Source of the DNA: Bolinopsis microptera
Lineage: Eukaryota; Ctenophora; Tentaculata; Lobata; Bolinopsidae
Length of the DNA: 60,000 bases
Assembly: GCF_026151205.1 (NCBI RefSeq)
Contig: NC_087079.1
Coordinates: 6,794,169-6,854,168, forward strand
Direction of reading: 5' to 3'
The notes under the pieces were generated by a model. It was given only the letters and a program-made list of their open reading frames with translations. It did no database searches and had not been told where the DNA came from. How positions within the stretch are numbered: position 1 is the first letter of the stretch; every line of letters begins with the position of its first letter. Positions 16,301 to 57,260 of this stretch are shown one piece after another. Both the position numbers and the translations under genes were made by a program.

Positions 16301-19300
16301 GTTAATGACATTTTTTTCAGTGTCTCCCCCTGGTACTACCCCTGGTACTACCCCTGGTACTGCCCCTGCCCCTGCCCCTGCCCCTGCCCCTGCCCCTGCC
16401 CCTGCCCCTGCCCCTGCCCCTGCCCCTGCCCCTGCCCCTGCCCCTGCCCCCTAAAAGTTAAACACACACTAACCTGTAGAGGGTTAGGTAGCTTAGTGTT
16501 CTCCGCCTCCCTGAACCCCTTCAGTATCTCCCCCCTGGTACTAGTCCGGAACTCCTTCTCCAGCACCTCGTCCCACCACCCCTTCTCTGCCAGGTAGTTT
16601 CTGATACGGTTTATGGGCGTGTCCACTGTGTCCCAGTGCTTCACCTCGTCTACTGACCTGCAGGGGTAGTTTATTTTAACAAATAAGGTGGTAACAACGA
16701 CCTGGAAACATTACATATTGTTTACATATTGTTAGTTTACAGCCACCTGGAGGGGTTCTGAAAACTTATTATTGATAAGAAGTAGTACTAGTAGTAGTGA
16801 TAAGAAGGGGTTTCGTAAATATATCGAGTTGTTAGCTGAGGATACAGAAACTGGTAGTAGTATAAGATATAGAAATGGTTTATCAGTAATCGATAAACAA
16901 TGACGTAAAGATAAATGTTTTGAATAGTTAAATCGACAATTTACGCTTGAATGCACGGTAAACTAAGCAGAAGGATTATAATTTCTGAGAAGATTGGCGA
17001 GACAGAATTGTGTTTTGAGGTAATGAACGAATGGTTAGCTCTGTACTAGCATTTTGAATTAACTATACGACGTGTATGTATTTAAATTAAGTAAGCATCT
17101 AAAGTTTGAGCTCCTAGTTCACCTAATGAGAGTCTGTATGAGAGCTGCCTTTTGTAAACATACAGTGGGTCGAATATTATGCTCTATAAAATATACCGAG
17201 TTAAGGATCTAGGAGTTACAGTGTCTTCAGATATTATATCGTGGTCACATCATGTCAGTTCTATGGCATCCCGAGCTAGGAACGTTCCAGCCTCGGTGCT
17301 CAGATCTTCACCCCATTATAGACCCACAGCTGTTTAAAGCTATCAGCATTTGTTAAATCCTTTCCAGATTATAACCCATCTGTCTGCCCTAATTGAAATT
17401 TTTTGCTGGACTGTAGTATGGACAAGGCAGCAGCGATGCTACAAGGGCGGTCAAACTATTTGATGACCCACTAAAGGAATCTACGAATATTTCCTAAGTA
17501 CATAAAGTAATTAAGTAAAGTAACTTTGCATCGACAGTAGACAAGGATTTAAAGAAAATCTGTATTCAAAGAAGATACGAATCTAATTCTGAGATAAGTC
17601 TTAGTAACTCTGTATCTAAATAATATCATGTATGAGTATTTGCAGACATCTGTATTTAAAGTAAGTATTTGTTGAGATTTGTATAGACAAACCTGTAGGC
17701 AGTAGAATCATCGCTGGTGCTGTGGTGGCCCACTCTATAAGTCATAGCCTCTAACACGACTGGTCTCTGCTGTTCGACACTGAGTTTCCGCGCGGCTTTC
17801 GTCGCGTTGTACACCGCAAACAAATCGTTACCGTCAAACCTTATTGCGGGTATTCCATACCCTATCCCACGGGATGCGATACCTGCATATAAAAATATCA
17901 TTAGAGAAGCTGGAGATTTACATTCATTGTATTGAAAAGTTAGCTTGAGGTTATAAGTTATAATACCGGATACTTTCTTGGAAACACGTCAGCAAACGAA
18001 AATCAATAAAAAGGAAGTTACTGCCGCCTTCCCCTGTCTACTGAACAAAATAATCTACAAATTAAAAACTCGGGACATGACAGGCTTAACCATCTCTGAC
18101 CGGAATTAAAAATACCGGAGGATGTCCAAAAACTCAAACGTAATCGTGCTGGATCCGACTAATTTTGTTGATTTGAAGATTCGCCGAGATTCGAAGACTT
18201 TACCACGATACCCAATTTGACTATAACGTACCACGGGGAAAAGCTTCAAATCTTCAAATTAACAAAATACAACCACTTAACCTCTCCCGAATTTGTCTCA
18301 ATTTGGCAAAAAAGCAGAGTTGTCAAGTCTGGTGCTTAATGATAATCACGTACCCACGTGGTAATCACGTGGGCACGTGGTAATCACGTGGTAATCACGT
18401 GCCCATGTGGTAATCACGTACCCACGTGGTATGTACCACGCTGGCTGCTGGCTGCTGCATTATAATATAACCACTTAACTTAATGTGAGTAAACGCTACA
18501 ACTCCTGGATTACCTACCATCTCCTCTGTATTGGTCCTTGGTGGCGGTTGAAATAGCATAACCATTGTTCCGGCAGAAGAAGAGAATAGGACAGTCCAGT
18601 GTGGCGGCCATGTTCATGGCAGAGTGGCAGTCCCCCTCGGAGGCGGCTCCCTCCCCAAAGTAGCACACTGCACAGGAGTCTTTGTCGCGCTGCTTCATTG
18701 CGTAGGCGTACCCGGCTGCTTGAGGGATCTGAGGGTTGTAATGCAGCTCAGGTTAGCAGGGTGTTTACTGTTTACGTATAGTACTAGTAATATAGTAGTA
18801 GTACTGTTAACTGTTTACTGTTTATGTTTACGTAGATCTGGTTACAGAAATGGGATTTGAACTGCAAGGGCACGACTTTGATAATTTCAGGCTAGCAGTG
18901 GTAATTTCAGCGACGCGTTTCAAAGTTTCGTTATTCAGCATGACAATTAAAGGGATTAGGAGTTGAAATTATTTTATAAACTCAGATACTTTAACCTTAT
19001 CATTTTATAAAGAAATTGTCATATTTACGTCATTGAGGGTGAGTAAAACTTTTTAAAAATTATCAGTCGAAATTCATTAAAATATAAAATTAGGATATTT
19101 TGACAAAAAATCGACGTTATTATTTGACAACCATACGTCATTAAGGTTGTATAAAACTTAACGGGGATTAAGCATTCAAATTTGTTTATAAAGCACAGAT
19201 ATTATGACTTAAGGGGGCAGGGTCTTAATGGAAATTGTCTCAAAATCGACTTTTTAGTTTTTTCTGATAGAGGGAGTTCCATAAAGACCCCCGCCCCTCT

Positions 19301-21451
19301 TACAAGAAATCGCCAACCTCATGAGGCCATAACCGTGACCACGGGCATGACACATACCAAAACTAATCAAAAGATAAATGACATAATAACATATTCTGTA
19401 CATCTCCTCATGGGATGTGCCTATTTATAGAACAGTATGCAGAGTATCCAGAATTAATTATAGATGTACAATAAAATAATAGACAGATTTTGGGAGTTCC
19501 AAATAGTTTCTGATTATTCTGATTTCTTGCGACAAATGATACTGCACTGTTAGGATAATAAAATTAATATAATACACAAATAAAACTTCCTTTCCTGATA
19601 AGAGCATTTTTCCTTGTCGCATCAAACGGGATCAATACAAATTTACACAAGAATACGTTGCAACCATGCGCCTCATAAACAATACTCCAATCCGGATTTT
19701 ACACAAATAAAAGAACAATAATTACTGAACAATACCTGAGTACCGAGTGGTGATGACACAGTTACCTGGTTACCTGGTTACCTGGTTACCTGGTTACCTG
19801 GTTACTTGGTTACATGGTTACCTGGTTACCTGGTTACCTGGTTACCTGGTTACCTGAACAATACCTGTGTACCGAGTGGTGATGACACAGCCTGGATGTT
19901 AACTTTCGCTCCAGTGTAATGTACTGGCATCTGTTTACCTGGTCACACGGGGACAAATCAGTAAATTATAATACAACTATATTTAAACATTATGACACCA
20001 TAGGTTATGTGCCCACTCTAGTTCTTATAATGCTGTGTAAAGCTCAGGGACCATCATTGTCCATTTCAAGGTAAGCTCTAAAGCTCTGAATTCAGATTTT
20101 GATGCTAATTCTGCCTTGAGTATAAGTAGGAGGAGTTGAGATATCTTTAGAAAAGGCAAAAATTTCTAAAAATCACCTTTTCCGAAGTCCTTGTTAGTTC
20201 CAAAACACTGATGCATCATTTCGAGCGGAGTATAGCCTCTCCAAATAAACACACCAGCTTCACGGTACTGAGGGAACACGACATCCTTAAACTTGAGAGC
20301 TCGAGCACTGCCTATTTGGGTTGCTTCCTCTCCAAAGTTCGTCATGTAAAAGGATATACGCCCTGAAAATTGTGGGTTTATGTCATCTTTATTGGGGAAC
20401 TGTTTGAGTTAATAAACTTGACATAGTTTCTCGGATATTGGATATACGCCTACTTTTGAAAGGTTATGTTGCTGTTAATAGCTTTGTTAATAGCAATAAC
20501 TGTAAATTGTTCAGAACACAAGTTACAGAACACAAGTTACAAACACAGTAAGAATTGGGGCCACAATTCTTGATATGTAAACGGCCCTAAACAAAACACG
20601 AAAGCGTGTATCAAAATTGAGTTATTAATGCAGTTCTTGACGCTATAAGCTACTCTAAAAAAAAAAAAGGAGAAAAAAAGCTATTCTGTACGTGAAACAT
20701 TAGAATCATTCCTAAGGTCACACGCTGAATTTTTGGAAGCCAATTTTAAGTTTCCGGCTTGAATTGTTACAATGAATTGCATTGAATCAATAAATATAAT
20801 GATGAGTCAGTCATGTTTTGATTTGAACATAATGCATCCTCAGTCATACTTTTAGCCTGTATTGTTTGATAGAACAAAGCGTAATTTTTACTTCATGCAT
20901 GCACACTTATATTACTACCCGGGTATATTATAATTTGTTGACAAAAAGCCAAGGGACAGAAAAGAACATTATTCAAGTACATAAAATGTACCTTGTCTTT
21001 GAGACTGATACAATATTCTATCCATGATACTGGTTTTAACCATTGCTTTGTACATATCAAGAAGGTCTTCCTTGTCAAATTCGGGATCATCTTTGGGATT
21101 TATGACTTTTCCCTGACTGTTCAGAACTCTGTAAATCGGGATTGTTGGTACCTGTATTATTCTTGTTATAGACATTATATACCACGCAGAGTGAGAACAT
21201 TAATGTCAAATCGGCAATAATATCACTGAATCATCAGTGATCAAACCTGATTAAAAATTTGATTACTGGTAAATTGATTATAAATATCTGAAAATTACCT
21301 CTTCAGGAAGAATGAACCGCATCTCTTTAGTAAATTCTGTTTTAACTCCAGGATAAGGAGCAGGCTCGTCTCTTACACTATCATGATGGAAACCAGCTAC
21401 CCTCTGAGTGACAGCTCCCAGAGTCCCAACTTTACGAGCTATTTTTATCAT
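4216..21451 (-). CDS. BCKDHA: BCKDHA, E1 alpha subunit of branched-chain 2-oxoacid dehydrogenase (whole gene, 8 coding exons)
   Basis: Mitochondrial E1 alpha subunit of the branched-chain 2-oxoacid dehydrogenase complex. With E1 beta it forms the thiamine-diphosphate-dependent decarboxylase for the keto acids of Leu, Ile and Val. Exons (minus strand): 21299-21451, 20992-21151, 20177-20362, 19865-19938, 18518-18728, 17693-17882, 16474-16657, 4216-4338. All have GT-AG borders and compatible phases, giving 1281 nt and 426 residues (human about 445). The first 20 residues are basic and amphipathic, as in a mitochondrial presequence. The ThDP motif GEGAASEGD...NN is at residues 216-246. Both serines of the kinase-regulated loop are conserved, at 316 (GHHS) and 326 (YRS), ten residues apart as in mammals. 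The C-terminus [10 protein letters not shown] matches human YGEHYPLDHF. Intron 7 is 12.1 kb, much longer than the others, and contains other genes. Introns 4 and 7 begin with tandem repeats. I see no disruption. Confidence 0.96.
4931..5020 (+). tRNA. tRNA-Tyr (GTA) with 17-nt intron
   Basis: The acceptor arm CCCTTGG pairs with TCGAGGG plus discriminator A. The D arm is GCTC...GAGC, the anticodon stem GAGGA/TCCTT has loop CTGTA, and the T arm ACCAG-TTCAAAT-CTGGT is perfect. Between anticodon position 37 and the 3' side of the stem lies an extra segment (TGGTTTCAACCCTAGTA) that must be removed, as in almost all eukaryotic nuclear tRNA-Tyr genes. The internal A box (TAGCTCAGTTGG) and B box (AGTTCAAATCT, one base off the GGTTCGANTCC consensus) are recognisable, and a T-run (CTTTTTAAG) follows the gene as Pol III terminator. 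It sits in BCKDHA intron 7 on the opposite strand. Confidence 0.92.
5194..5217. repeat. Poly-C tract (24 nt)
   Basis: An uninterrupted run of 24 C inside BCKDHA intron 7. Its true length is uncertain, since such homopolymers are error-prone in sequencing. Confidence 0.9.
5218..6169. other. AT-rich intron sequence, nothing recognised
   Basis: Part of BCKDHA intron 7 between the poly-C tract and the nested zinc-finger gene. No exon or mobile element was recognised. Confidence 0.4.
6170..6805 (-). CDS. Small C2HC zinc-finger protein gene nested in BCKDHA intron 7
   Basis: Two exons, 6723-6805 and 6170-6383 (minus), join with perfect phase (donor TCAGA/GTAAGT, acceptor GTATGTTTTCAG) into a 98-aa reading frame. 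Residues 5-25 form a CX2C-X12-H-X3-C zinc finger ([21 protein letters not shown], broken here: CRFC then H and C). A basic helical region follows ([20 protein letters not shown] then [11 protein letters not shown]), and the protein ends in a Gly/Ser tail ([13 protein letters not shown]). I do not recognise the family. The ATG (MVQECRF) is the nearest start, but the frame stays open further upstream. The CTATGGTACAG just before GAGTGC could be an acceptor, so earlier exons may exist. It has the same orientation as BCKDHA, so it needs its own promoter or is an alternative exon set. Confidence 0.6.
6806..9832. other. Intronic sequence with no recognised gene
   Basis: BCKDHA intron 7. Several longish open frames occur (for example near 7872-8318 minus) but show no motif I recognise. 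The CGCTCGCTTCGCTCGCG run at about 8202-8219 looks like part of a dispersed repeat. Confidence 0.35.
9833..9924. repeat. Perfect 92-bp palindrome, no spacer
   Basis: Two 46-nt arms are exact reverse complements with the centre TTTATAAA at 9878/9879. The pairing runs from AGAAAATTCATGG to CCATGAATTTTCT and breaks at both outer ends. There is no spacer, so it can extrude a cruciform or fold into a 46-bp hairpin. Confidence 0.95.
9925..10997. other. Intronic sequence, nothing recognised
   Basis: BCKDHA intron 7, AT-rich, no exon recognised. It may include 5' parts of the LINE remnant that follows. Confidence 0.35.
10998..11960 (+). mobile_element. 3' end of a LINE (non-LTR retrotransposon) remnant
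   Basis: An open frame at 10998-11636 encodes a 212-aa segment typical of the last part of LINE ORF2 downstream of the reverse transcriptase: a helical stretch ([20 protein letters not shown]), [20 protein letters not shown], then a zinc knuckle CRHC...[16 protein letters not shown]. The same architecture appears at 22086-22559. No reverse transcriptase domain is left upstream, so the copy is 5'-truncated. About 290 nt after the stop, three direct copies of GTTTAATTCCT (11921-11955) may be the 3'-terminal repeats. It lies antisense within BCKDHA intron 7. Confidence 0.75.
11961..13473. other. Intronic sequence, nothing recognised
   Basis: BCKDHA intron 7. The only notable content is a small cluster of CACGTG/TCACGTGA motifs at about 12513-12530 and 12624-12631. 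Confidence 0.35.
13474..13495. repeat. Poly-C tract (22 nt)
   Basis: A second uninterrupted C run in the same intron, adjoining GGTA. It is close in length to the one at 5194. Confidence 0.9.
13496..16324. other. Intronic sequence; contains one dispersed repeat copy
   Basis: No exon recognised. At 14727-14790 a segment (GAGTCAAGGACAAGAGTTAG through GCTTTGCGACCG) recurs inverted at 23404-23461, so both are copies of an unnamed interspersed repeat. A short AT dinucleotide run lies at 14447-14472. Confidence 0.45.
16325..16450. repeat. CCCCTG hexanucleotide array beside the BCKDHA exon 7 donor
   Basis: Three 12-bp units (CCCCTGGTACTA) followed by about 15 copies of CCCCTG. On the coding strand this is (CAGGGG)n beginning 24 nt after the exon 7 donor GTTAGT. 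Runs of four G every six bases are ideal for G-quadruplex formation. The first 17 or so bases (TCTCCCCCTGGTACTA) nearly equal an exon 7 segment at 16527-16543, so the array may have been seeded from exon sequence. Confidence 0.93.
16474..16657 (-). CDS. BCKDHA: BCKDHA coding exon 7
   Basis: Residues 325-386: [30 protein letters not shown] and a basic helix ending NPLQ. Acceptor ACCCCTGCAG, donor CTACAG/GTTAGT, phase 2 in and 0 out. A C-rich hexanucleotide array starts 24 nt beyond the donor. Part of the exon (near 16527-16543) resembles the intronic sequence at 16323-16339. Confidence 0.95.
17693..17882 (-). CDS. BCKDHA: BCKDHA coding exon 6 (regulatory loop)
   Basis: Residues 262-325: [33 protein letters not shown] and [20 protein letters not shown]. 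Contains the first regulatory phosphoserine (GHHS, residue 316). Donor TACAG/GTTTGT splits the Arg codon just before the second regulatory serine. Confidence 0.96.
18344..18432. repeat. CACGTG-rich 12-bp repeat in BCKDHA intron 5
   Basis: About 90 bp of degenerate units like GGTAATCACGTG containing six perfect CACGTG palindromes (E-box/bHLH-type sites), plus near matches. It may be a binding-site cluster or simply a minisatellite whose unit happens to contain CACGTG. Confidence 0.7.
18518..18728 (-). CDS. BCKDHA: BCKDHA coding exon 5 (ThDP motif)
   Basis: Residues 192-262. Starts [18 protein letters not shown] and carries the thiamine-diphosphate motif [12 protein letters not shown] and [12 protein letters not shown]. 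Acceptor AACCCTCAG, donor GATG/GTAGGT, phase 0 in and 1 out. Confidence 0.96.
18729..19724. other. BCKDHA intron 4 main part
   Basis: AT-rich intron, no other feature seen apart from a degenerate GTTTACTGTTTA/GTAGTACT-type simple repeat next to the exon 5 acceptor (18765-18835). Confidence 0.4.
19725..19890. repeat. Duplicated exon 4 end flanking an 8-bp array
   Basis: Two 37-nt copies (19725-19761 and about 19854-19890, one mismatch in the core) enclose roughly eleven copies of GGTTACCT. The right copy is the true 3' end of BCKDHA exon 4 with its donor. The left copy is an intronic duplicate that also keeps the donor (CTCAG/GTATTG). On the coding strand the array reads CAGGTAAC over and over, each one a near-consensus 5' splice site. 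Confidence 0.9.
19865..19938 (-). CDS. BCKDHA: BCKDHA coding exon 4 (3' end duplicated in the intron)
   Basis: A short 74-nt exon, residues 167-191, encoding [20 protein letters not shown] then PLGTQ; mammalian counterpart RQMPVHYG...ISSPLATQ. Phase 1 in, phase 0 out, donor ACACAG/GTATTG. The last 20-odd nt of this exon plus the donor are repeated once, with one mismatch, 129 nt further into the intron, beyond an 8-bp tandem repeat. Confidence 0.93.
20177..20362 (-). CDS. BCKDHA: BCKDHA coding exon 3
   Basis: Residues 105-166: [20 protein letters not shown], then [20 protein letters not shown]. Corresponds to the mammalian [20 protein letters not shown] and YREAGVLMYRDYPLELF segments around the cofactor site. 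Acceptor AATTTTCAG, donor AAAG/GTGATT, phase 1 at both ends. Confidence 0.95.
20363..20991. other. BCKDHA intron 2
   Basis: 629-nt AT-rich intron with a poly-A run near 20657. No embedded feature seen. Confidence 0.6.
20992..21151 (-). CDS. BCKDHA: BCKDHA coding exon 2
   Basis: Residues 52-104, encoding [20 protein letters not shown] and then [12 protein letters not shown], both hallmarks of E1 alpha. Acceptor AATAATACAG, donor CAAG/GTACAT, phase 0 in and phase 1 out. Confidence 0.95.
21299..21451 (-). CDS. BCKDHA: BCKDHA coding exon 1
   Basis: Residues 1-51. Begins at ATG ([12 protein letters not shown]), a likely mitochondrial targeting peptide, and runs to [20 protein letters not shown], which parallels the mammalian FPGASAEF...LEFI region. 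Donor GAG/GTAATT, phase 0. The ATG is the first one compatible with the homology; a 5' UTR exon upstream is possible but not seen. Confidence 0.9.
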
Positions 21452-33759: not shown

Positions 33760-33953
33760 CTGAACAATTAGAAGAGTTTTAATTTAGAGTCGGTTTATTA
33801 TTGTGTTATTCTAGGGCGCTAAATCAAATCAATCATTAAATTTTAGACCTGTAAATTCAATGGACTCAATTTATTGTCGACAACTCATCGTATTAATTTG
33901 ATAATCAGACCAAATTATTAGAAACAAAACCCACAAGTTGCACAGTAACTCAC

Positions 33954-34163
33954 ACTGAAACAGATGTCTGTCCTGAGGAAGCAGAGCCCGATAACCTCAG
34001 GACACTTGTAGATAAGTGTGACAGTGACACTCACTGTCACAAGCTCAGAGATTGAGGGTAACTGGACGGTTACCAGAGCCTCCTGGTTACTAGGCAACAG
34101 GGTCATCACGTGACAGTCACCTATGTGGTGGAGAAGGGTGGGCAGGGAGGGTTTTAGTTCCAC
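33954..34163 (-). CDS. Internal exon of unrecognised gene, acceptor amplified
   Basis: Encodes 70 codons, phase 0 at both ends: VELKPSLPTLLHHIGDCHVM, then SNQEALVTVQLPSISELVTV and SVTVTLIYKCPE, a beta-strand-rich pattern. The donor is AGT/GTGAGT (or GAG/GTTATC). The acceptor CCCTCCCCAG/GTGGAAC and the exon's first 19 or so bases form the unit of the adjoining 26-bp array, so the true acceptor may be any of several copies. It joins in phase with the exon at 35242-35442. Family not recognised. Confidence 0.6.
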
Positions 34164-34518
34164 CTGGGGAGGGAGGGTTTTAGTTCCACCTGGGGAGGGA
34201 GGGTTTTAGTTCCACCTGGGGAGGGAGAGTTTTAGTTCCACCTGGGGAGAAAGGGTTTTAGTTCCACCTGGGGAGGGAGAGTTTTAGTTCCACCTGGGGA
34301 GAAAGGGTTTTAGTTCCACCTGGGGAGGGAGGGTTTTAGTTCCACCTGGGGAGAAAGGGTTTTAGTTCCACCTGGGGAGGGAGGGTTTTAGTTCCACCTG
34401 GGGAGGGAGGGTTTTAGTTCCACCTGGGGGGGAGAAAGGGTTTTAGTTCCACCTGGGGAGGGAGGGTTTTAGTTCCACCTGGGGAGGGAGGGTTTTAGTT
34501 CCACCTGGGGAGAAAGGG
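34144..34518. repeat. 26-bp minisatellite built from a splice acceptor
   Basis: About 14 copies of a 26-bp unit; on the coding (minus) strand each unit reads CCCTCCCCAG/GTGGAACTAA plus AACCCTC. It begins inside the exon at 33954-34163, so every unit repeats that exon's polypyrimidine tract, AG and first bases. Variants (AGGGAGGG versus AGAAAGGG) change the pyrimidine tract strength between copies. Confidence 0.93.
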
Positions 34519-35241
34519 TTGGAAGGAAAAACATTGTATATCGAACAAACTTAATTCTTAAGAAACATGCAGGGAATGTGTGATTAGATTCCTTCCTAAA
34601 CGTGATTCTTATTGAAAGTATTGCTAGAAAATTTCTTGCAAAAGATGTCCTAGAATATCAGGGCCAGGGGCCCTATGTCGGATGTCAAAAATAAAAATAA
34701 AGCTATCTTAGAACCAGGTGGATCATGGATGATGTATAAAGTATAGACGTCGCATGATGACGTCACATGATGACGTCACATGATGACGTCACATGATGAC
34801 GTCACATGACCAATATATTGTAATATGGAGATCAGGACAGGGTGTGGTAGAATTAACACAATGGAGAGTTATGTGAGAGGAGCAGAATAGTTTCATGTGA
34901 AATTGTTGTTCCCATCCACATTGCGTTGAGTAGAATCACAGTCATTGGTGTGCAAGCTAACATAATATATAATACATATATATACAGTATACTACACAGC
35001 TACAGTCGTAAGTTATAATGAATAATGTGAATAATGAATCATAAAGTAGTCTTGTTTCGTTAGTCGTATATTCCTGGTGAGGTGCACGAGACATTACACA
35101 AACCACTGATTTTGTGACTGTCATGACATAGCCGCAGTAAATATTAAATAACCGCATCTTAATTTAAGGGCGCATATTAACGCGTACGGTCAAATAATAT
35201 TTCAGATTAAAAAGTAGAGAAAACATGTTGGTATTTCCTAC
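34519..35241. other. Intron with a TGACGTCA cluster
   Basis: Intron between two exons of the unrecognised gene. At 34753-34809 four perfect TGACGTCA palindromes (CREB/ATF-type sites) recur every 13 bp (unit CATGATGACGTCA). Otherwise nothing seen. Confidence 0.5.
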
Positions 35242-35442
35242 CTTTACAAATCTGGAAATATTAGAGGAGGTTTGAGGAAGCTCTCTCAGTCTGATATCCA
35301 GGTACCCATGTGACACCTCGCTAGACACCCTCACTGAGTCGTTATGTAAAGTTGAGTACAAACTAGATATATCCCCGATGTATCTGGATAGTTGATCCTG
35401 TGTTGATAGTATCTCGCTCCGACGTTCTGATATCCCGTCAAG
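35242..35442 (-). CDS. Exon of unrecognised gene (helical segment)
   Basis: 67 codons, LDGISERRSEILSTQDQLSR then YIGDISSLYSTLHNDSVRV and LRELPQTSSNISRFVK, predicted helical and coiled-coil-like. Donor GTAAAG/GTAGGA, acceptor CAGCTCCTGCAG. An upstream alternative would extend it to ATG 35472 (MSGVSCQLLQ). The phase 0 donor continues smoothly into the exon at 34163. Earlier exons on the higher-coordinate side were not identified. Confidence 0.6.
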
Positions 35443-36059: not shown

Positions 36060-38245
36060 ACTTTTATACATAGTGGTACTAGTGGTGTGTGGTGTGTGGT
36101 TCATTGTTGATTACTGGTTTACTTTTATACATAGTGGTAGTAGTGGTGTGTGGTGTGTGGTTCATTGTTGATTACTGATTTACTTTTATACATAGTGGTA
36201 GTAGTGGTGTGTGGTGTGTGGTTCATTGTTGATTACTGATTTACTTTTATACATAGTGGTAGTAGTGGTGTGTGGTGTGTGGTTCATTGTTCATTACTGA
36301 TTTACTTTTATACATAGTGGTAGTAGTGGTGTGTGGTGTGTGGTTCATTGTTCATTACTGATTTACTTTTATACATAGTGGTAGTAGTGGTGTGTGGTGT
36401 GTGGTTCATTGTTCATTACTGATTTACTTTTATACATAGTGGTAGTAGTGGTGTGTGGTGTGTGGTTCATTGTTGATTACTGATTTACTTTTATACATAG
36501 TGGTAGTAGTGGTGTGTGGTGTGTGGTTCATTGTTGATTACTGATTTACTTTTATACATAGTGGTAGTGGTGGTGTGTGGTGTGTGGTTCATTGTTGATT
36601 ACTGGTTTACTTTTATACATAGTGGTAGTAGTGGTGTGTGGTGTGTGGTTCATTGTTGATTACTGATTTACTTTTATACATAGTGGTAGTAGTGGTGTGT
36701 GGTGTGTGGTTCATTGTTGATTACTGGTTTACTTTTATACATAGTGGTAGTAGTGGTGTGTGGTGTGTGGTTCATTGTTGATTACTGGTTTACTTTTATA
36801 CATAGTGGTAGTAGTGGTGTGTGGTGTGTGGTTCATTGTTCATTACTGATTTACTTTTATACATAGTGGTAGTAGTGGTGTGTGGTGTGTGGTTCATTGT
36901 TCATTACTGATTTACTTTTATACATAGTGGTAGTAGTGGTGTGTGGTGTGTGGTTCATTGTTGATTACTGATTTACTTTTATACATAGTGGTAGTAGTGG
37001 TGTGTGGTGTGTGGTTCATTGTTCATTACTGATTTACTTTTATACATAGTGGTAGTAGTGGTGTGTGGTTCATTGTTCATTACTGATTTACTTTTATACA
37101 TAGTGGTAGTAGTGGTGTGTGGTGTGTGGTTCATTGTTCATTACTGATTTACTTTTATACATAGTGGTAGTAGTGGTGTGTGGTGTGTGGTTCATTGTTC
37201 ATTACTGATTTACTTTTATACATAGTGGTAGTAGTGGTGTGTGGTGTGTGGTTCATTGTTGATTACTGGTTTACTTTTATACATAGTGGTAGTAGTGGTG
37301 TGTGGTGTGTGGTTCATTGTTGATTACTGGTTTACTTTTATACATAGTGGTACTAGTGGTGTGTGGTGTGTGGTTCATTGTTCATTACTGATTTACTTTT
37401 ATACATAGTGGTAGTGGTGGTGTGTGGTGTGTGGTTCATTGTTGATTACTGGTTTACTTTTATACATAGTGGTACTAGTGGTGTGTGGTGTGTGGTTCAT
37501 TGTTGATTACTGGTTTACTTTTATACATAGTGGTAGTGGTGGTGTGTGGTGTGCATGTGGTTCATTGTTGATTACTGATTTACTTTTATACATAGTGGTA
37601 GTAGTGGTGTGTGGTGTGTGGTTCATTGTTCATTACTGATTTACTTTTATACATAGTGGTAGTAGTGGTGTGTGGTGTGTGGTTCATTGTTCATTACTGA
37701 TTTACTTTTATACATAGTGGTAGTAGTGGTGTGTGGCGTGGTTCATTGTTGATTACTGGTTTACTTTTATACATAGTGGTAGTGGTGGTGTGTGGTGTGT
37801 GGTTCATTGTTGATTACTGATTTACTTTTATACATAGTGGTAGTGGTGGTGTGTGGCGTGGTTCATTGTTGATTACTGATTTACTTTTATACATAGTGGT
37901 AGTGGTGGTGTGTGGCGTGGTTCATTGTTGATTACTGATTTACTTTTATACATAGTGGTAGTGGTGGTGTGTGGCGTGGTTCATTGTTGATTACTGATTT
38001 ACTTTTATACATAGTGGTAGTAGTGGTGTGTGGTGTGTGGTTCATTGTTCATTACTGATTTACTTTTATACATAGTGGTAGTGGTGGTGTGTGGTGTGTG
38101 GTTCATTGTTGATTACTGATTTACTTTTATACATAGTGGTAGTAGTGGTGTGTGGTGTGTGGTTCATTGTTGATTACTGGTTTACTTTTATACATAGTGG
38201 TAGTGGTGGTGTGTGGTGTGTGGTTCATTGTTGATTACTGATTTT
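36060..38245. repeat. 61-bp minisatellite, about 36 copies
   Basis: The unit begins ACTTTTATACATAGTGGTAG and recurs every 61 bp with a GTGTGTGGTGTGTGG core; some copies are 2-10 bp shorter or longer. Variants (GATTACTG versus CATTACTG, TACTAG versus TAGTAG) are interleaved. Open frames inside are periodicity artefacts. Confidence 0.95.
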
Positions 38246-38951: not shown

Positions 38952-39923
38952 CTAACCAGTGCCGGGCAAGTAAAGAGCGCACTCAGCACATACTTTCACC
39001 AAATCATGTTTAGTATCAGGGTTAGTAACCCCCAGCGAGGCCTTAACAACAGTGTTACAACAGCATTTAGCACAGTAACTCCTACCACAAAACCCACACA
39101 TCACCTCCCCACAGCCAGTACTAGAGCAGTTTGTGCAGGGTCGAGAACAAGAGAGAGCACTCGGGGACATTCCGTCCTCTTCAATATCATCCTGTGATTC
39201 CTGAACTGGATCCAGTGGAACATGGAGAGAAGGCTGATTTGAAAGCTCGGCTGAATCCTCAAACTCACCATCACTCTCTGCCCTCTCGTAGTCCTGTTCC
39301 AACGCAACTTTACATTTAAAATCTATCTCAGTGAGAAGCCCCCTGAGAGCATTATAACATGTCTTATTACAACAGAAGAGATACAGAACAACACCTAGTA
39401 GGAGGATATTGAGGGGGATGACAGAGGGGGCGAGGATCAGGAACCCTGCAATCACTAAACAGTTTCTAGTCTCGTTAAAGTCCTTCCAACACACCACTTC
39501 AATTAGCTTATCACCAATCTGGAGGACATTCTTCAGTAACACGTCCAGTTCCTGCAACATGCACTTGTAGTCCTCTATCGTCTGTTCTCGGGACTTCTTC
39601 GAACTTTCCGGCTCCAGTGAATAATAAATAGGGTTTATAAAGTTGACAGGATTCAGAGGATTAGTTCTAGAATGTTGGTTCTGAGAGAAGTTGCCCATGT
39701 AACTGACACTGAACACGCCAGTTAAAGCAGCCAGCAGAGCAAACTGAAGATAGGCAGGGTAGATGAGGAGTGTAGTGGTTACCACGAGGGAGCATATTGT
39801 AAACTGGGTGTTTCTCCAGGATAACGCGTGAGAGATGCGTGAGTAGAGGGGGTGGAGGGGTCGGCACACTGATTTGAGCTTGTTATAGTTGGTTACTAGG
39901 TCCCTCAGTTCCACTTCAGTCAT
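38952..39923 (-). CDS. ZFYVE27: Protrudin-like ER membrane protein (FYVE, FFAT)
   Basis: A 323-aa single-exon reading frame. Protrudin is an ER-shaping protein that binds VAP, Rab11/Rab7 and kinesin-1 to promote endosome and ER transport and protrusion outgrowth. Hydrophobic segments lie at about residues 41-75 and 153-184, as expected for the paired membrane segment and re-entrant hairpin. Residues 220-226 (EFEDSAE) match the FFAT consensus that binds VAP. Residues 263-316 form a FYVE-type zinc domain: CTNC, CGFCGRSYCAKCC, then VVKASLGVTNPD and VCAECALYL. The last part tracks human protrudin closely; canonical PI3P residues (WxxD, RHHCR) are absent, as in the human protein. Shorter than human (about 411 aa). 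The TTAAACAG five bases before the ATG suggests a 5' UTR intron. Confidence 0.88.
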   Translation of the reverse strand: MTEVELRDLVTNYNKLKSVCRPLHPLYSRISHALSWRNTQFTICSLVVTTTLLIYPAYLQFALLAALTGVFSVSYMGNFSQNQHSRTNPLNPVNFINPIYYSLEPESSKKSREQTIEDYKCMLQELDVLLKNVLQIGDKLIEVVCWKDFNETRNCLVIAGFLILAPSVIPLNILLLGVVLYLFCCNKTCYNALRGLLTEIDFKCKVALEQDYERAESDGEFEDSAELSNQPSLHVPLDPVQESQDDIEEDGMSPSALSCSRPCTNCSSTGCGEVMCGFCGRSYCAKCCCNTVVKASLGVTNPDTKHDLVKVCAECALYLPGTG

Positions 39924-42868
39924 AGTTCCTGTTTAACAAGAGTTAGTTGAATTTTAATATTTTTAACCGTTATAAATTCTTAGAATATATTATGTTGTTT
40001 TTTCTATTTCATTTTGTTCTTGCTAACAATGCCAAATATTTAATACTCTTTAACATTGAAACCCGTGATAATGTTGTCTGTGATAAGCAGGATTAAACAG
40101 AGATATCGTCTTCAAAGCACGTGTTCATATTGGAGTTGATTGAACACAACGAACTTACCAAACACTGCCAAAATAATTGTATCTGTTCATTGAATTATTA
40201 TTTTATTATAACGGTTAACACTTATTAACTGTCTATGTGTTGAGATCACGATATATAATGTGATAAAGCACTGTCATGAAAATCAAAACAGCTCAGTTTA
40301 TTTGTGTACATTTACCACGTGACTTGTTATTATTATAGTTATTATTAGAGTCACGTGATTATTAGAGTCACGAGACAAACCAATATATAACATAGTTAGC
40401 TCATTTGTTTAATTGTACATCAACCGAGTATTTCACAGATAAACATTGCTAATTAACTGATTAATTCTGTCAATGATGCAATGTGGAGGATATTGTTCCG
40501 TTACTGAATGGTATTCCAGCAATGCTATATTCGGATTGACTGTTTAGTCAAAGCTATTTCTGAGTATTTGGCATACCTGAAAATCGAATCGTGAAAAAGC
40601 TAATTATAGGTTATAATCTAGATGTTCAGATGTAATTGGTGAGGTCACGGTTGCCTTGGCAATAGATTTTTTCCAATAAAATTATTCACACAGAATAGTT
40701 TGTGACACAGAATGTGAAATAATTCCATCATTTTAGATACTATATACGATATTTCGGAAGAAATTTACAAAAAATAAAACAAACAGTTACCATGGTTACA
40801 GTAATCATTGAAAATTAATTGATATAAATGTTTACAGTTTCATAAATATACAGTTACTTTAATGCTCAAAACAGTGCTACGCTGACAGATAATATGTGAA
40901 CAAACTCGGATCAGATAGATATTATCGCACAACGCTGACGAAATCAGTACAGTAATAATACATGTAATATAATGCGGCTAGAGTGCGGTTCAACACTCTG
41001 ATGCGGTTCAAACACCGTGATGCGGTTCAGATAACTTGGTTACAATAATACAATAATGGGTCATCACAAAACGTTGCGTTACAGGTACTGTAAATATAAC
41101 TGTTATATAATCTGCTTATCTTACAAACTGTCAAATTGCCAAGATAACGTTTGGACTGTATTATCTTTATAATATGTTTATTTACAACAAATGAGAGACT
41201 ACATTTTCTAATTTTGGAACACACACGAAAATCTTTTACCCATGAGGCCGTGAGGCGGTCACTACTTTTCAAAACGGAAATATTGATTATTGTTAATTAC
41301 ATATTATATTAAGTAATGCCAGAATTACACAACATCTTATTAGGTATCTATTTCAAACCCAGAGTTTGCATTACTCAAAATTGAACATTATAATATATAA
41401 TATTATTGACTCACGTATATTAACTTCTGTACAAATAAAACTGAGAGAACACAGAATATTGTTAGTATAAACAAGAGAAGCCAAAAAAAAAACAATGCAG
41501 TTAACTTAAATTATACAATCACATAAGCAGACTAAAGTTCTAAACACTTATCCCATTTAAAATCCAAAATATCTAACAAAAGGTCCCATAGTTAAGAGAA
41601 GAAGAGTAATCCTCCCATCAGGTGTACTATCACTGCAAATTAAAATGTCCTAAAATCCCTTTACATTATTGTTAAAACATTTCAGGCATAAATTTGAATA
41701 TTAGAAGAAAATTGCTTAAAAGTGAGGCCCTCAATCTTATTCTATTTTTTACTGCTTTAATCAAAAATCTGCAGATTTTACAAGGCAAGCAGATAAAATC
41801 AGATCACTTAAATTTCAACAAATAACTCCCAAAATTATATAGCAACTGCAAACTAGGGTCAAACTTAGCTTAGGAAGATTTGAAAAAGGAAAACAGTTCG
41901 GTAAATAATATTGTTTTGACGGTAGCTTGCAATTTCGCTAGTATTCGTTATTAATTTAATTTTCACGATTACTGACAAGTGTAGTGCACAGAAAATTATA
42001 AATAATATATCTGCACACCGCTGTATAGTGAATGTTACAGTAATCTTATAGTCCCACAAACTTCCAATAGTTACCCTGGTAGTGGGACACAATTTTGAAG
42101 AGCAAATTATGAGAAAAAGTTAAATAATTCGAGATCTATCAGCCCGAAAGCAGCAATCGTAGCTCTGAAATTGTCTCCCACTTCAGTTATAGAAAATGTT
42201 ATGATATTTACAGTAGATATGGCTTATGGCATGGTTGCTTTGGGTCTTCATAATAAACATTTTATAGGTATTATCTGCAATTTAAGAGTAAGATTAATGT
42301 GATCATGTGTCAAATTCACATTCCTAAATGCCATAAACCAGTAAAATATATTCAGATTTAACTACAAACATAAGACGGTAACGGTAATCAAATGCCTCTT
42401 TTATCTAGAAAACAGCTCAAGTTTTGATAACCGTTATTATCATTCGAAATGAAAGCATCAGAGGGACTAAAGGACAAATCTTTTCCAACAAGGTACTAAC
42501 TTACTTAGAAAGCCCTAAAAAGTATGGTCGTGAAAATACTTTGTAATTCCTAATATGAAGCTATGAAAATGTTCGGCAAACATGTACATGTACCTACTTA
42601 ATACGTATACTACTTAGTACTTATACCTAATAACAAGACACACAATCCATATCATAAAAAGCACAAAATAATGTGAATAAGAATGGATAATACCGAAAAT
42701 CTAAATAATGTACAATGATTTCAACAACATGTTCCTATACCATAATACAAGTTTAACCCGTGTGAAATATGTCTCCACCGTGGATGAGATTGCATCATTT
42801 ACAACAAAATATTAAAAATAATTATCATTATCTTTAGTTCGAACATACCGTGACTCCAGAATCCGTGA
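39924..42868. other. Intergenic / 5' region of the protrudin-like gene
   Basis: About 2.9 kb of AT-rich sequence without recognised exons. It should contain the protrudin-like gene's 5' UTR exon and promoter and the FAM72 3' UTR, but neither is identifiable. CACGTG-type motifs occur near 40316 and 40352. Confidence 0.4.
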
Positions 42869-48090: not shown

Positions 48091-49560
48091 ACAATATCAT
48101 CTCAAGAAAAGAGACCAGAATGGTCCGCCAAATTTAAGGAGTGGTTGATAAGAAGTGTTGAACTCAGCTATGAGTCGTCTATAGGCAAATTTAACGGAGA
48201 GTGGTACAGACAAAAACGAGGAGTACCGACAGGAGGCAGTATCTGTGTACAACTTGCAAACATAGCAGTATACCATGTCATGCGTGAGCAAGTCTATTCA
48301 GACACGGAACTAATGGAACCTGTAAAATCGGTCAAGAGATACATAGACGACGGCTGTGAAGTATTCCATGGTACGAAAAGACAGTTTTTAAAATTCATCG
48401 CGACTGTCAATACAAGGCTAGCAGAACTTGGCCTCCACATTGATGAGAACATCATAGAAGATAACAATGTTTATGTGGCGTTCTTAGACATAGAATTTTG
48501 TTTCGACACCGCAGGTGATCTTCAGACAGACCTCCATGTTAAAGAGACTGATGCTCGCTCTTACCTGTACTTCGGTTCCCACCACCCGAACCATACATTC
48601 AGCAGCATAGTCTATAGTGCATGCCTGAGACTCCGGCGAATCATCAATGATAACGACAGACTCCGAAAACAAATTGATGAATTAAAAACCTTTTTCTTCC
48701 AATCCAACTACCCTAAAACTATGGTAGATAACATCAGTGAAAAAGTCAAAGGCTTTGAAAGATGCCTCAATCCACTGGACAACTCAAACAGCAGTGTCCT
48801 GGTCCCAAAGTCTCCAGAACCAGCAGTCCGCGTTATTTCAACATTTAGCAGCGATCAAGAGTTAGTAGAATCGGTAAAAAGATTGGAACCAGAACTCAGT
48901 AGAACCAGGAGCTTCTCAGGACTATCTGGTTCCCATACAAGTGGAAACACCACAGGCTCCCCAATATCATCTAGAGCCGGTACATCACGCCCTATCTTCA
49001 AATTCGTCAGACGTACTGGAACATCATTTAGAAGGAAGTTAGTCAAAGCAAAACAGTTTGCGGATGACTTAACCCAACCTCACACAAGACCATGTGGGGG
49101 CAGACACTGCGGTACCTGTAACATCATATCTCCACATCCATCAATAACAGTCAATGGACAGCGAGCCAAAGCAGTGTCTGGTACATGTGTCAGCTACAAT
49201 GTTGTATACATCTTCAGTTGCCAACTTTGTAACATGTGTTATGTAGGAAGAACGGTGAAGCCCCTAAGGGCACGAGTAAACGAACATCGCGCCCATTACT
49301 ACAAGCTCATTTCGGACAATACGTTTGTCCCTGAAGAAAACGACGACGGATTCAGCTTGGGTAAACACCTTGTAGAAGTTCATAACATGAAACAACGTGA
49401 CAATTTCAACCAGGCTTATAAAGTGTCAATTCTCAGTAATAGTAGCCCAAGAACTCTAGAAGTGGATGAACACCGTTATATTCAGAAACTAAGAACTATA
49501 CGTCCATTGGGGCTCAATGCCGTGGACCCGTTTGGGATTCCATTATTGGATTTATCTTAA
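48091..49560 (+). mobile_element. Penelope-like retroelement, 5'-truncated, RT end plus GIY-YIG nuclease
   Basis: An uninterrupted frame starts right after a stop at 48088 and runs to TAA at 49560. Numbering from ATG 48145: the C-terminal half of the reverse transcriptase, with QKRGVPTGG (23-31) and YIDD (66-69); a Cys linker CGGRHCGTC (about 315-323); and a GIY-YIG endonuclease from about 352 with VVYIFSC...CYVGRT, RARVNEHR and DEHRYIQKLRTIRPLGLN (about 440-457). RT followed by a CxxC linker and GIY-YIG defines EN+ Penelope-like elements. The N-terminal RT fingers are missing, so the copy cannot be autonomous, yet 490 codons without a stop or frameshift imply recent insertion. Confidence 0.93.
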
Positions 49561-50433: not shown

Positions 50434-50493
50434 ATAAATAAAATAAAAGACAATTATGAACATATGTTCATAATTGTCTTTTATTTTATTTAT
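50434..50493. repeat. Perfect 60-bp palindrome
   Basis: Centre CATATG at 50463/50464; arms read AAAGACAATTATGAACATA outward to ATAAATAAAAT. No spacer or mismatch. Only 30 bp separate it from the palindrome at 50374-50403, and the spacer is two copies of TTTTTATATAAA-type sequence. Confidence 0.93.
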
Positions 50494-51935: not shown

Positions 51936-51936
51936 T

Positions 51937-52762: not shown

Positions 52763-52922
52763 ATTGTCCCACATTGAAACGATGATTTGGCGCCCCCGCA
52801 CAGCGGAGTTTACCTGGGAACCTCAGGCTATCATGTTCATAAACAATATGAGATTAGGCGGAATGACAGGCTGAGCGCCGCCCAGTAAAGCAAGGTCGGC
52901 GGGGCCCTTTGTTACGCCACTG
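52763..52922. mobile_element. hAT MITE remnant
   Basis: Has ATTGTCCCACATTGAAACG, GACAGGCTGAGCGCCGCCC and the right terminus TTGTTACGCCACTG, related to the MITE at 30702. Left TIR not found. Confidence 0.7.
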
Positions 52923-53478
52923 GTTCCGTCAAAGATGTGTCAAAGAAGAATCCTGAAAATCAAATGGTGTAACGTTGCATGTTGGAGCCTCCTCCACCTC
53001 ATAAAGTGGAAAGATAAAATTGGACAAATTATGTGATTTTAGCGGATACGCCAGTAAAATCTCTAAAAAGATATGTTTCTAGAGCAAAATGTGCAGTTTT
53101 GCTAGTACTTAAGTTACTTTTTTCAAAATTGTCCCACATTCAAACGACAATTCAGCGGGTCCCTTCGTTACGCCACTGCTATCGTGTATCTAACGCTGAT
53201 GTACTCAAGCATACCAACAACGCCCCTGTTGATACTTTTGTGTACAAGCAGCTAGGCTCAGATGGTTTGGTTATGTGTTGAGGATGCCAGAAGAGAAAAT
53301 ATCCAACTATCTTCTGCACTGGATCACAAAGAATGGCAAAAAGTCTAGAGGCAGACCTCGCAAGAACTGGTTATCATGTACTGCCCTAGAGAATGAGGCT
53401 AATATCACAATGGAAGCAGAGCAACAAGCAACAGACAGGGTACTGGGGTACATTGGTGCAGGCCACTTCAACGATTAA
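52923..53478 (+). mobile_element. Decayed LINE ORF2 end, interrupted by a MITE
   Basis: LINE pieces at 52923-52970 (RQRCVK then, one frame away, RRILKIKW) and 53179-53478 (RVSNADVLKHTNNAPVDTF, a frameshift, then LRWFGYVLRMPEEKISNYLL and GKKSRGRPRKNW ... ATDRV). QRCLRRILGI-W, RVSN--VL-RT, LRW-GHV-RMP and GRPRKNW are consecutive landmarks of one LINE ORF2 tail. The two pieces are contiguous in the protein but separated by a hAT-type insertion. At least two frameshifts; pseudogene. Confidence 0.75.
52963..53178. mobile_element. hAT MITE inserted in LINE
   Basis: Starts near GGTGTAACG (degenerate TIR) and ends CTTCGTTACGCCACTG. The interior contains ATTGTCCCACATTCAAACGA as in the other copies. 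It sits between the KIKW and RVSN codons of the LINE. About 216 bp. Confidence 0.7.
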
Positions 53479-56400
53479 AAGGAGACCTTTTCAAGTACAA
53501 GTTAGTAAGTTTCAGGACTTAGATAGATTTATTTGATGGATTAATTAGTTTATTCTATTTTGTCCAATGTTTTAAGCTTTTTCATACCTGGAAAAAGGTT
53601 TGTTTGTGATATATTACATTGGCAAAAAGTAATAAAACAAAAGTTGATTGAACAAAAGTTAAATTTATTACCAATTATTCAATCAATACATATGATAAAC
53701 TCTAATATAGGAAATTCACAGCAAAAAAGATGCTTTAAACTATTTTGTTGTAGCTTATAGATTCTAATAGTTCCTATACTGGGTTGAAAAACAAAAATGG
53801 GAGAAAATCGTTAATTTTAAACATTTGGGGGAATAATTTGGTTGCTCAAAGCAGTCAGATTATCCTTTGCTTAGTATTTAAATCATAATGGTATCAAAAT
53901 CTGCCACAGTATTTATAATTGTTTACTCTAAGTTACTAAATCATTTGTACAGTAGCATTAGAATCTCTATGGACATAAAGCTACATTCATGTTCTTTGAG
54001 CCTATCAATGGTTTAGATTTCACTATTTTCTATCTAGCGAGCTTTTAAGAAACAATTTTGTACCACTGTGTGATTTTCTGTTATATTTCTGAGCATTCTT
54101 TTTGCCACCATTACATCTGAAGTTTTCTGTAAAAAAGAAGAACTATGATCTCCCTTGAGGTGAGTGTATTATATTCATTGTATACTTAAAAAACATTAAA
54201 AAAAAAACATTTTATGAATCTGTAAAGTAGCATGAAGAAGAGTTGAACAGGTATTCTCTTATAATTAACATAATATTATCTTATGACTGCATAAAGTTTG
54301 GGCCAGTGGCCAGCTTATGTGAGTTATTAGTACGTCAATGAATTGCATGTCATTTATTAATCAAATTATGTGTCTTATGAATTGTTTGGATCCATCATTG
54401 ATTTGTGTTATATGTATAATCCTGTGAATTTCTTCATGGCAATAAAGGCATGCTTTTGTTCACAATTTTTGTTGCCACTGACGACTTATTTGTAATTTTC
54501 TGAATAGTTTGTCATGGTGAAAATGGCGACAACGGCAAGAATAGAAAAACATCTTTGTCATTTATCATGAGTTTTATTGATTCTTTGCAAATCAAATAAA
54601 AAGGTTTATCGTGAAATTGGCGATGATTCCTACTCAATATTTGATGTTTTGATGCTCTGTCTAATAAATCTGTTGAGGTAACAATACATAATATGTATAT
54701 AACACGATTTGGGGAATAGAGTAGAACTTCAGAAATCCCTCCTGGCATTCAATATATATTCTGTAAGTCATTTAAACAACAGGGCTGCCAAATACCAATA
54801 TTCTGAATACTGAAGTAAAATAAAAACTAAGATAAGCAGTTGCTTCAGTAGAACCAGTGCTCCATCACATGAACCCTAATATTTATCTTTCTGTCATGTT
54901 TGTATAACACAATTTGAAACATGATACTTACTAAACACAATATTTATCATTACTATACCTTTCTAAGATAAGGAATGCGTCATCAGTGATGTGTATCAGA
55001 GCTCAGTGTTACCATGGTTACCATGCACACTTCCAAACAGGTGGGTATCTCAGCACAGTTATAAATGTTGTCATCGTGATCGTTACTAAATACTGCAATC
55101 TTGTCAGTTCATAGCATTTTATATCACCATTGTTGGGTTCTTTAATTACATGTGCAAGGTATCCTCTCTTCAGTAAATGTTCGGTTACTTAGGAAATGAT
55201 CCAGCATCTCTAGCATCATAATAGTCGTCAGATATTACTCTAAAGCTAACTGTATAATACTGATAATAACATGAGTTGTGGCCGTAGTATTGATTGGAGT
55301 ATATAATATCTGACTGTTATTGTTACAAGTAGCACTGAAACGCTATGCGGCTATGGCTGACCCTTCCTTCTTAAGAAATATATGCTTTATGTTGACCACA
55401 ACCCACCATAGCGTTATATTGTTATAATAACCTTACAACAACACACGCGACCCACTATTGTCCTGCGATAATATGGTTGTCTGGGTGATATAGTTGCCTG
55501 GGTGATATGGTTGTCCGGGTGAACACGTGATCGCACTCCCTGCTTTGTCACTTTTAAACATTTTTTCATGAATGTTTTTCTCCCTAAATGTTTTGTTCGA
55601 GTTCTTTGTCCCCGCTACTTACTGGTTAACTGTAAGAAATTCTCGAAGCACAATGGACCCAGCCCAGGGAACCAGTTAACAGCTATTTCACAAACTTTTG
55701 TCAGCTGAAAAGAGCTAGACGATAGCCACTGTACACAGGTGCTTAACGTTTGGCAGCTGCCTTGAGGCTAATACCTGGGAGGCATTGTACCCCGCCTCCG
55801 AAGTAATTAGCAAGCTATTGTGTTTATTGCTGGTGATAAAAACTGGCCTGTTAGTGGCGGGGTGTTTTATTTCACTTACTGGACCCATTTTATTTGAACG
55901 TACCTCCGTCAAATGGCATATTCTTATTTTGTGTATTGTATCTGTGAAATGGCCCATATAATTCGTATTTTGTGTATTTTATCTGTGAAATAGCATATAA
56001 TATATTTGGATTGTTTATGTTACTTGTTACCCTCGGCAGTTTAAATTGAGAATTTCTATAGGAGAGACCTGAGCGGTTTGATCAACGTTTTGATAAATCA
56101 TACTGTGACGTTCGGAAATATATTTGCATGACTATTGACTTCAGTAATTTGAATAATTGATGAACAAAAACCATCATCGAATTTTTAATTTATTTATTAT
56201 CGTATCAAGAAAGCTAGATTTTATTCCCACCTTTTGGCTTTTTTTCACAGCAATCTGTGCAATCACATATTTTGCTTCTATTTTCTATTTCAATATAGGT
56301 ATTGATATCTTTCGTTAGTCCGTGTTTCTTGGGTATGCCTTTAATTTTGAAGCGTGTAAATACTAGAATTTATTTATTATTTAATTATGCATTGCCACCC

Positions 56401-56682
56401 TCCGCCAAGGGATTTAAACAAACCAATTTGTCGTACGTGTTCTCCCTGTTATAAGTTTACTGAAACCATAAAGTTGTGAGTGAAGGGTAATTTGTGTCGT
56501 TTTGACTTTTATATCCCTTTGCAGTATTGTTAATTTTGCTTATCTTACCTGCAGTTTATACTGTAAGAATTTATCAGCATGACACAAGCATTTCTTTAAA
56601 TTCTTTAATATTGTTATTCGTTTCTAAAACCTCTACTTGTAAAGATGTTCTCAAAAATTAAACCACTCCGTTATCTCTCTAG
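53479..56682. other. Intergenic, no gene recognised
   Basis: About 3.2 kb of AT-rich DNA. It should hold the promoter and 5' UTR exon of the G6PD-like gene. A GGGTGATA(T)-type direct repeat lies at 55482-55520. No coding exon seen. Confidence 0.4.
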
Positions 56683-56688
56683 ATTAAC

Positions 56689-56781
56689 ATGGAGGCACTA
56701 GAAGCTATACAGAATGGAGCGGCTTCCAAACCCATATTCTCTAAAGACTCCTGCGTGGTCTTCACCGTCCTTGGAGCGTCG
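56689..56781 (+). CDS. G6PD: First coding exon of probable glucose-6-phosphate dehydrogenase
   Basis: ATG at 56689 after a strong acceptor (CGTTATCTCTCTAG at 56682), so a 5' UTR intron is likely. Thirty-one codons end SKDSCVVFTVLGAS/GTAAGT. G6PD catalyses the first, NADP-dependent step of the oxidative pentose phosphate pathway in the cytosol. Its dinucleotide fold opens with a beta strand and G(A)SGDLAKKK; here the exon ends exactly at VLGAS, where GDLAKK would follow in the next exon. That next exon was not found before the right edge. The call rests on about ten residues and the exon position, so it is moderate. An H6PD-type gene or another Rossmann-fold protein is possible. Confidence 0.55.
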
Positions 56782-57260
56782 GTAAGTCAATGTTGGTATT
56801 AATTAGTCTGTTTTAGTAAGTCAATGTTAGTATTAATTAGTCTGTTTTAGTAAGTCAATGTTGGTATTAATTAGTCTGTTTTAGTAAGTCAATGTTGGTA
56901 TTAATTAGTCTGTTTTAGTAAGTCAATGTTGGTATTAATTAGTCTGTTTTAGTAAGTCAATGTTGGTATTAATTAGTCTGTTTTAGTAAATCAATGTTGG
57001 TATTAATTAGTCTGTTTTAGTAAGTCAATGTTGGTATTAATTAGTCTGTTTTAGTAAGTCAATGTTGGTATTAATTAGTATGTTTTAGTAAGTCAATGTT
57101 GGTATTAATTAGTCTGTTTTAGTAAGTCAATGTTGGTATTAATTAGTCTGTTTTAGTAAGTCAATGTTGGTATTAATTAGTCTGTTTTAGTAAGTCAATG
57201 TTAGTATTAATTAGTCTGTCTTGGTAAGTTAAAGTTAGTATTGATTAGGTTTGGTAAGTG
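56782..57260. repeat. 34-bp minisatellite made of the exon's splice donor
   Basis: Starts at the first base of the intron. Thirteen 34-bp units (56782, 56816, ... 57190), each beginning GTAAGTCAATGTT, then two degraded ones (57224, 57256). The unit end CTGTTTTAG before each GTAAGT also resembles an acceptor. Copies differ by one or two bases only. Confidence 0.95.

Follow-up and report, generated by a model that had tools for sequence, protein, structure and literature searches.

The window analysed here, the whole 60-kb stretch of Bolinopsis microptera DNA, carries three genes in which tandem arrays lie on or close to splice junctions: a G6PD-like gene, a gene near 34 kb and BCKDHA. By using Tandem Repeats Finder (TRF), 35 rows were obtained for the window, which were reduced to 30 arrays by hand merging and cover 11.4% of its length; together with flanks of 30 nt they occupy 14.4%. 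The stretch also holds a 61-bp array of 36 copies at 36060-38244, where GC skew is very high (0.56 in 36-38 kb), and two open frames of other kinds. A 489-aa frame at 48091-49557 (+ strand) matched reverse transcriptase and GIY-YIG weakly, in both cases below the Pfam cut-offs, and is presumably a Penelope-like element. A 326-aa frame at 38955-39932 (- strand), read from its first ATG, exceeds the Pfam cut-off for Pex24p, and by eye we take this frame to be protrudin-like.

Coding exon 1 of the G6PD-like gene (56689..56781, + strand, from the ATG; MEALEAIQNGAASKPIFSKDSCVVFTVLGAS/, the slash marking an exon-intron border here and below) ends with CTTGGAGCGTCG/GTAAGT at 56781 (protein GAS/). At 56782, the first intron base, a 34-bp array of 13.7 copies opens (56782..57248, + strand; TRF and unit listing), its unit beginning exactly at the donor and including zero exon bases. 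Nearly all units are headed by the donor GTAAGT (one has GTAAAT); those adjoining the exon are near-identical, and the distant ones, which reach about 57340, are degenerate. In total, GTAAGT occurs 15 times within 56770-57320. Exon 2 (CTCAG/GGCGATTTAGCG, encoding GDLAKKK...) was located 39 kb downstream at C8:6890392, with contig and strand unchanged, and its phase-0 acceptor CTCAG/GGC supports both the exon 1 border and phase 0. Presumably a human intron occupies the same position. With the consensus unit, splicing from an inner donor, tried with one to three extra units, would lead to an in-frame stop. Further into the same intron, positions 57804-57900 form an interspersed repeat; of 225 candidates 40 were scored, and 39 of these are near-identical copies elsewhere.

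The gene near 34 kb is read on the minus strand. Its tentative exon 1 ends at 35243 and its tentative exon 2 (VELKPSLPTLLHHIGDCHVM...) covers 33954..34163, with the acceptor at the upstream end and GTGAGT at 33953, both exons being drawn from open frame and splice consensus. Across this acceptor lies a 26-bp array of 14.6 copies (34139..34520, - strand; TRF and unit listing), in which the units read CAG/GTGGAACTAAAACCCT or close variants and each contains the acceptor plus the first exon bases; CAG/GTGGAACT was counted 14 times, as was CAGGTGGAACT. The predicted product had zero matches in Pfam and PDB, and the border, placed by reading frame, phase and splice consensus, is tentative. Outer acceptors, tried likewise with one to three consensus units, bring in an in-frame stop. 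Given the stops that follow from inner G6PD donors and from outer 34-kb acceptors, the frame would be kept by the outermost donor and by the innermost acceptor alone, and these are presumably the sites in use.

In BCKDHA, the borders were set by a PDB match to 1dtw and by spliced alignment against human BCKDHA, with which 199 of 324 aligned residues are identical. The exon ending in SSPLGTQ/ (19865..19938, - strand) has its donor at 19864. An array of 12 copies of the 8-bp unit CAGGTAAC (CAG/GTAAC; 19761..19856, - strand; TRF) begins 8 nt into the intron, and on its far flank lies a border-spanning block, in which exon end and donor are repeated within the intron with 36 of 37 bp matching (19725..19761, - strand; alignment). 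The exon ending in PNPLQ/ (16474..16657, - strand; spliced alignment and PDB match) has its donor at 16473 and is followed, 23-146 nt into the intron, by a 12-bp and then a 6-bp array (16327..16450, - strand; CCCCTGGTACTA then CTGCCC when written on the + strand; TRF). Overlapping the far end of this array, at 16316..16338 (- strand), is a copy of 24 bp that stand at 16520-16543 within the same exon, the alignment having 24 columns with 22 matches, 1 mismatch and 1 gap. As this array spans no border, it falls outside the strict meaning of mirage, a term taken from the amphioxus arrays considered below. The last BCKDHA exon was sought in 8001-16700 and was not found (score 34), so the acceptor of this intron is unmapped.

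The four arrays had been singled out in a preliminary description of the window, and TRF recovered all of them where noted, in three genes, at 0, 0, 8 and 23 nt from the mapped borders. Its individual observations also held: the repetition of the first 34 bp of the G6PD-like intron, the repeated acceptor and first exon bases at 34.16 kb (with a border that is tentative), the duplication of exon end and donor around the array at BCKDHA exon 4, the recurrence of an exon 7 segment at an array, and the multiplication of candidate splice sites. The statement that each array or its flank is built from junction sequence stands for three of them, which repeat border sequence, but not for the fourth, since the array after PNPLQ copies an exon segment and not the border. 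The sequence identity of the window arrays with border or exon is not explained by chance, and these are true local duplications. As to their rarity, an array is found within 30 nt of 4 of the 15 junctions mapped in the window. The probability of at least 4 of 15 is 0.16 if placement is uniform and 0.017 against the rate of 30/430 in the sample of 215 introns described next, the post hoc pick being uncorrected in both values, and on these figures the earlier argument that four independent coincidences are unlikely in about 15 junctions was dropped as a standalone argument. A search of the genome for a second copy of the stretches 16325-16725 and 56200-57900 found none.

For the genome sample, conserved genes were located with human protein sequences as queries, which are approximate and may hold errors. 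Regions were fetched where several exons clustered, leaving out single-exon and many weak hits, and were aligned with a spliced aligner that permits GT-AG introns only. The genes were picked blind to the arrays that they carry, and the sample consists of conserved, mostly housekeeping genes. The non-redundant set comprises 39 alignments, some of them paralogues or pieces of one gene, with 222 introns, of which 215 were kept. Four introns were dropped by a 30-nt exon-length filter and three as dubious by hand (L012 at 2122, L048 at 824 and L038 at 1670); the dropped L012 intron, which terminates within a 185-bp satellite, would have counted as one more acceptor-spanning case. Second copies, weak loci and single-exon loci (L014, L043, L045, L047, L049 and L050) were excluded. 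An earlier set of 197 introns still includes L014 and the L012 intron; in that set arrays make up 15.8% of intron bases. Arrays with a period of at least 6 were counted, and an array was taken as spanning when it extended at least 3 nt across a border. By this definition there are 76 arrays in the 215 introns and 0 wholly inside the 41,613 coding bases.

Arrays detected by TRF span 6 of the 215 donors and 1 of the 215 acceptors. The clearest case, a textbook mirage, is found in an MDH2-like gene (L036, C3:542600-546600, at about 1725-3207), where a 47-bp unit consisting of 39 nt of exon end and 8 nt of intron is repeated 32 times across the donor. A second donor-spanning array in MDH2 has a 31-bp unit in 3.8 copies, and two in an AHCY-like gene have units of 31 bp (13.8 copies) and 13 bp (7.2 copies). 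The 14-nt border word recurs, with at most two mismatches, in both MDH2 and both AHCY-like arrays, and no such recurrence was seen in the remaining two, in citrate synthase (150 bp, 2.4 copies) and in IDH (33 bp, 2.1 copies, sharing only 4 nt with the exon). The single spanned acceptor, in GLUD1, is crossed by 4 nt, which may be a chance extension. In GAPDH an array opens 7 nt inside the donor with units that resemble the border. The exon 1 donor of ENO1 runs directly into (GTTA)n both on C4 (L003) and on C188 (L051), a second, 98%-identical contig that was taken as a haplotig. The exon end is the same on the two contigs, the donor reads GTAAGT on C188 and GTTAGT on C4, and the layout of the repeat differs between them.

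To follow the birth of arrays, second copies of FH, CSNK2A1 and PDHB were examined together with another SDHB contig. Since TRF was run on introns alone, this comparison is blind to spanning; the smallest distance that it returned between an array edge and a splice site was 16 nt for donors and 21 nt for acceptors. Large interior insertions were seen in FH (932 nt) and CSNK2A1 (338 nt). In SDHB, the intron after aa 201 contains a 58-bp array of 3.1 copies ending 29 nt before the acceptor on C61 (L045; intron of 359 nt), probably a haplotig, and the array is absent from C2 (L044; 254 nt). The fumarase gene is present as two inverted copies about 100 kb apart (C8:15785300-15792500 and C8:15887900-15897500), with different intron insertions.

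The preliminary description had called for a test of whether arrays lie within 30 nt of splice sites more often than expected. The answer depends on the null that is chosen. In the main null, arrays were collapsed to one unit and were free to straddle the borders of their own intron at its present length. Under this null, 19.8 arrays are expected at or near splice sites and 30 were counted (about 1.5-fold, P=0.001-0.002), and the excess was kept under stricter filters: 18 vs 10.0 with at least 3 copies (P=0.001), 24 vs 13.7 with a score of at least 80 (P printed as 0.000 from 2000 simulations) and 11 vs 6.0 with both at least 3 copies and a score of at least 150 (P=0.004). By intron length class the excess is 1.2-1.9-fold and nominally significant in one class of four (P=0.014). 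When the total is divided, the sole strong excess is that of arrays ending 0-30 nt before the acceptor (15 vs 6.0, 2.5-fold, P=0.001). Arrays 0-30 nt inside the donor number 8 against 6.0 (P=0.24), spanned donors 6 against 3.9 (P=0.18) and spanned acceptors 1 against 3.9 (P for so few 0.06-0.08 across nulls). The donor-spanning count is therefore not clearly above uniform seeding over intron and border, and the donor-acceptor asymmetry, 6 vs 1 of 215 introns, is suggestive only.

Two other nulls gave different figures. When arrays were allowed to move between introns, donors stood at 14 vs 9.0 (P=0.053) and acceptors at 16 vs 9.0 (P=0.01). A null from the 197-intron set that kept arrays wholly intronic had given, within 30 nt, 15 vs 7.6 for donors and 17 vs 7.7 for acceptors; it was dropped as unfair because it forbids straddling. 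The target length matters as well: with introns capped at 600, 400, 300 and 200 nt, the total expected grows to 24.6, 28.4, 32.0 and 39.3, to be set against the observed 30. Whether the excess is real hinges on introns at their present length being the correct target, and that premise is in doubt because array-free introns have a median of 207 nt (n=167) and because of the large interior insertions in the FH and CSNK2A1 copies. The proposed enrichment thus appears in the 215 introns at their present length but is gone if the arrays arose in introns of about 400 nt or less. The acceptor-side excess, for its part, is unexplained by uniform seeding unless ancestral introns were short.

A second view was obtained from the recurrence of border-centred 16-mers within 1 kb, with at most two mismatches. 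Centred on the border, recurrence was found at 7/197 donors and 1/197 acceptors; 30 nt into the intron, it rose to 18/197 on the donor side and 15/197 on the acceptor side. The corresponding figures are 93 of 18,818 positions in exon interiors and 8,499 of 50,705 deep in introns (about 17%, from 131 introns with long introns weighted). On the donor side of introns of at least 400 nt, the counts were 6/59 at 0, 10/59 at +16, 9/59 at +30 and 11/59 at +200. Local recurrence rises into the intron, and a peak at the junction is absent.

Taken together, these results make it probable that the mirage-type minisatellites are products of ordinary local tandem duplication in introns crowded with arrays, tolerated as long as the exon-proximal splice site stays in use; they look like a by-product of tandem-repeat-rich introns and not a new process aimed at splice sites. 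The duplication would proceed by slippage or unequal exchange, with homogenisation afterwards. Some arrays do start at or straddle a splice site and so copy the exon end with its donor, or the acceptor with the exon start. Such copies could persist since the exon-proximal site would still be used, leaving the mRNA unchanged, and conservation of the exon would keep the origin of the array visible. Acceptor-spanning arrays may be rarer because splicing would then meet a wrong AG first after the branch point.

A competing explanation is that arrays are seeded by the splice signals: GTAAGT and GTTAGT, as donor hexamers, amount to 1.5 units of a 4-bp repeat, and branch-point and pyrimidine stretches are of low complexity, so that slippage would be favoured at intron ends. 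The total excess under the present-length null fits this idea, as do the arrays just before acceptors, of which 6/15 have units with YTAAY, presumably a branch-point-like motif, against 11/61 elsewhere. The (GTTA)n that begins exactly at the ENO1 donor points in the same direction, and under the filter of at least 3 copies and a score of at least 150, 4 donors are spanned against 1.4 expected (P=0.037). The earlier view that arrays are seeded at the junction keeps this last result, but border 16-mers recur less often than those of the intron interior, spanning is not significant in the unfiltered set at either site, and the total excess vanishes if ancestral introns were 400 nt or shorter. On balance we regard seeding by splice signals as rather unlikely. 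A related and bolder scenario, which can be put forward only tentatively, would make intron ends mild hot spots, through 4-periodic donors and branch-point or pyrimidine seeds, with arrays purged at acceptors and tolerated at donors; the outcome would be one-sided, ongoing intron growth and possibly new introns.

The other explanations have far less in their favour. That arrays are kept as an aid to splicing, supplying spare donors, acceptors and branch points, or as regulators, is improbable: their units do repeat donors, acceptors and branch-like motifs, but unit length is no multiple of 3 in 8 of 10 listed units (the 150-bp citrate synthase unit being outside the list), and use of another copy gave an in-frame stop in both consensus cases tried, so spare sites would mostly be harmful. 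Errors of assembly or of exon borders are very unlikely to account for the pattern. The 34-kb gene gave no Pfam or PDB match, and arrays are hard to assemble, so that copy numbers may be inexact; against this, the 215 introns combine GT-AG borders, the only kind the aligner allows, with continuous protein homology, the ENO1 array sits at the same donor on two contigs, and the join of G6PD exons 1 and 2 is in phase. Two of the mechanisms proposed in the preliminary description, R-loop breakage at splice sites and repair from a spliced-RNA template, fit the position of the arrays and nothing else, and we find them scarcely credible. Repair from spliced RNA would predict exon-exon joins, and the border copies examined are contiguous, unspliced exon-intron sequence, never such joins; R-loop seeding would predict G-rich RNA-like strands, and of the ten listed units, 4 have a positive GC skew on the RNA-like strand, 5 have a negative one and 1 has a skew of zero.

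If local duplication across borders occurs genome-wide as in the sample, border-spanning minisatellites are no amphioxus curiosity, since in a distant animal lineage roughly 3% of donors would be affected. They would offer many natural experiments on how the spliceosome chooses one among many sites that are identical, and models of how introns lengthen and are gained could draw on them. In such genomes, exon borders are easily mis-annotated.

Several known systems can be compared with these arrays. Intron gain by tandem genomic duplication, as reported for potato RdRp (PMC4974935), shares with them a local tandem duplication within a gene that bears on introns; however, the arrays described here sit in existing introns. 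In C. elegans, intronic minisatellites have been tied to alternative splicing (PMC4039745), and there too minisatellites lie in introns of spliced genes, but that work concerns the regulation of multiple splicing decisions, and border duplication is absent from its title and the start of its abstract. Within ctenophores, repeats detected by Tandem Repeats Finder are given as 13% of the Hormiphora genome (PMC8527503), the main text of the Bolinopsis paper contains none of the words tandem, minisatellite and intron (PMC10232365), and among the matches listed no ctenophore report of border minisatellites appears by title or abstract start.

The closest parallel is found in amphioxus, where minisatellite-like tandem copies of an exon-intron border have been described in the globins BflGb6 and BflGb9, Adh3, troponin C and PGBD5, most, although not all, being published as "mirages" (PMC3087553, PMC3902484). 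These involve the 5' or the 3' border, hold many copies with AG/GT signals and vary in length between haplotypes, and splicing and somatic instability have been reported, the instability for Adh3 (PMC3087553, PMC3902484). Regular splicing of the mRNA that stays unaffected counts among the marks of a mirage. The phenomenon for which a new process had been proposed is already on record in amphioxus. The ctenophore arrays resemble it in being tandem border copies with splice signals, at donor or acceptor: copies with such signals were found at the G6PD array with its degenerate end and at 34 kb, and the unit spans the border in the 34-kb acceptor array, where the border is tentative, and at the six sampled donors. 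A layout that differs between presumed haplotypes was seen at ENO1, yet that repeat is a microsatellite. They differ from the amphioxus mirages in lineage, in units that are partly shorter (6-12 bp) and in being known here from sequence alone. What is added is a host lineage that is probably new for mirages, together with an estimate of their rate from a sample of 215 introns.
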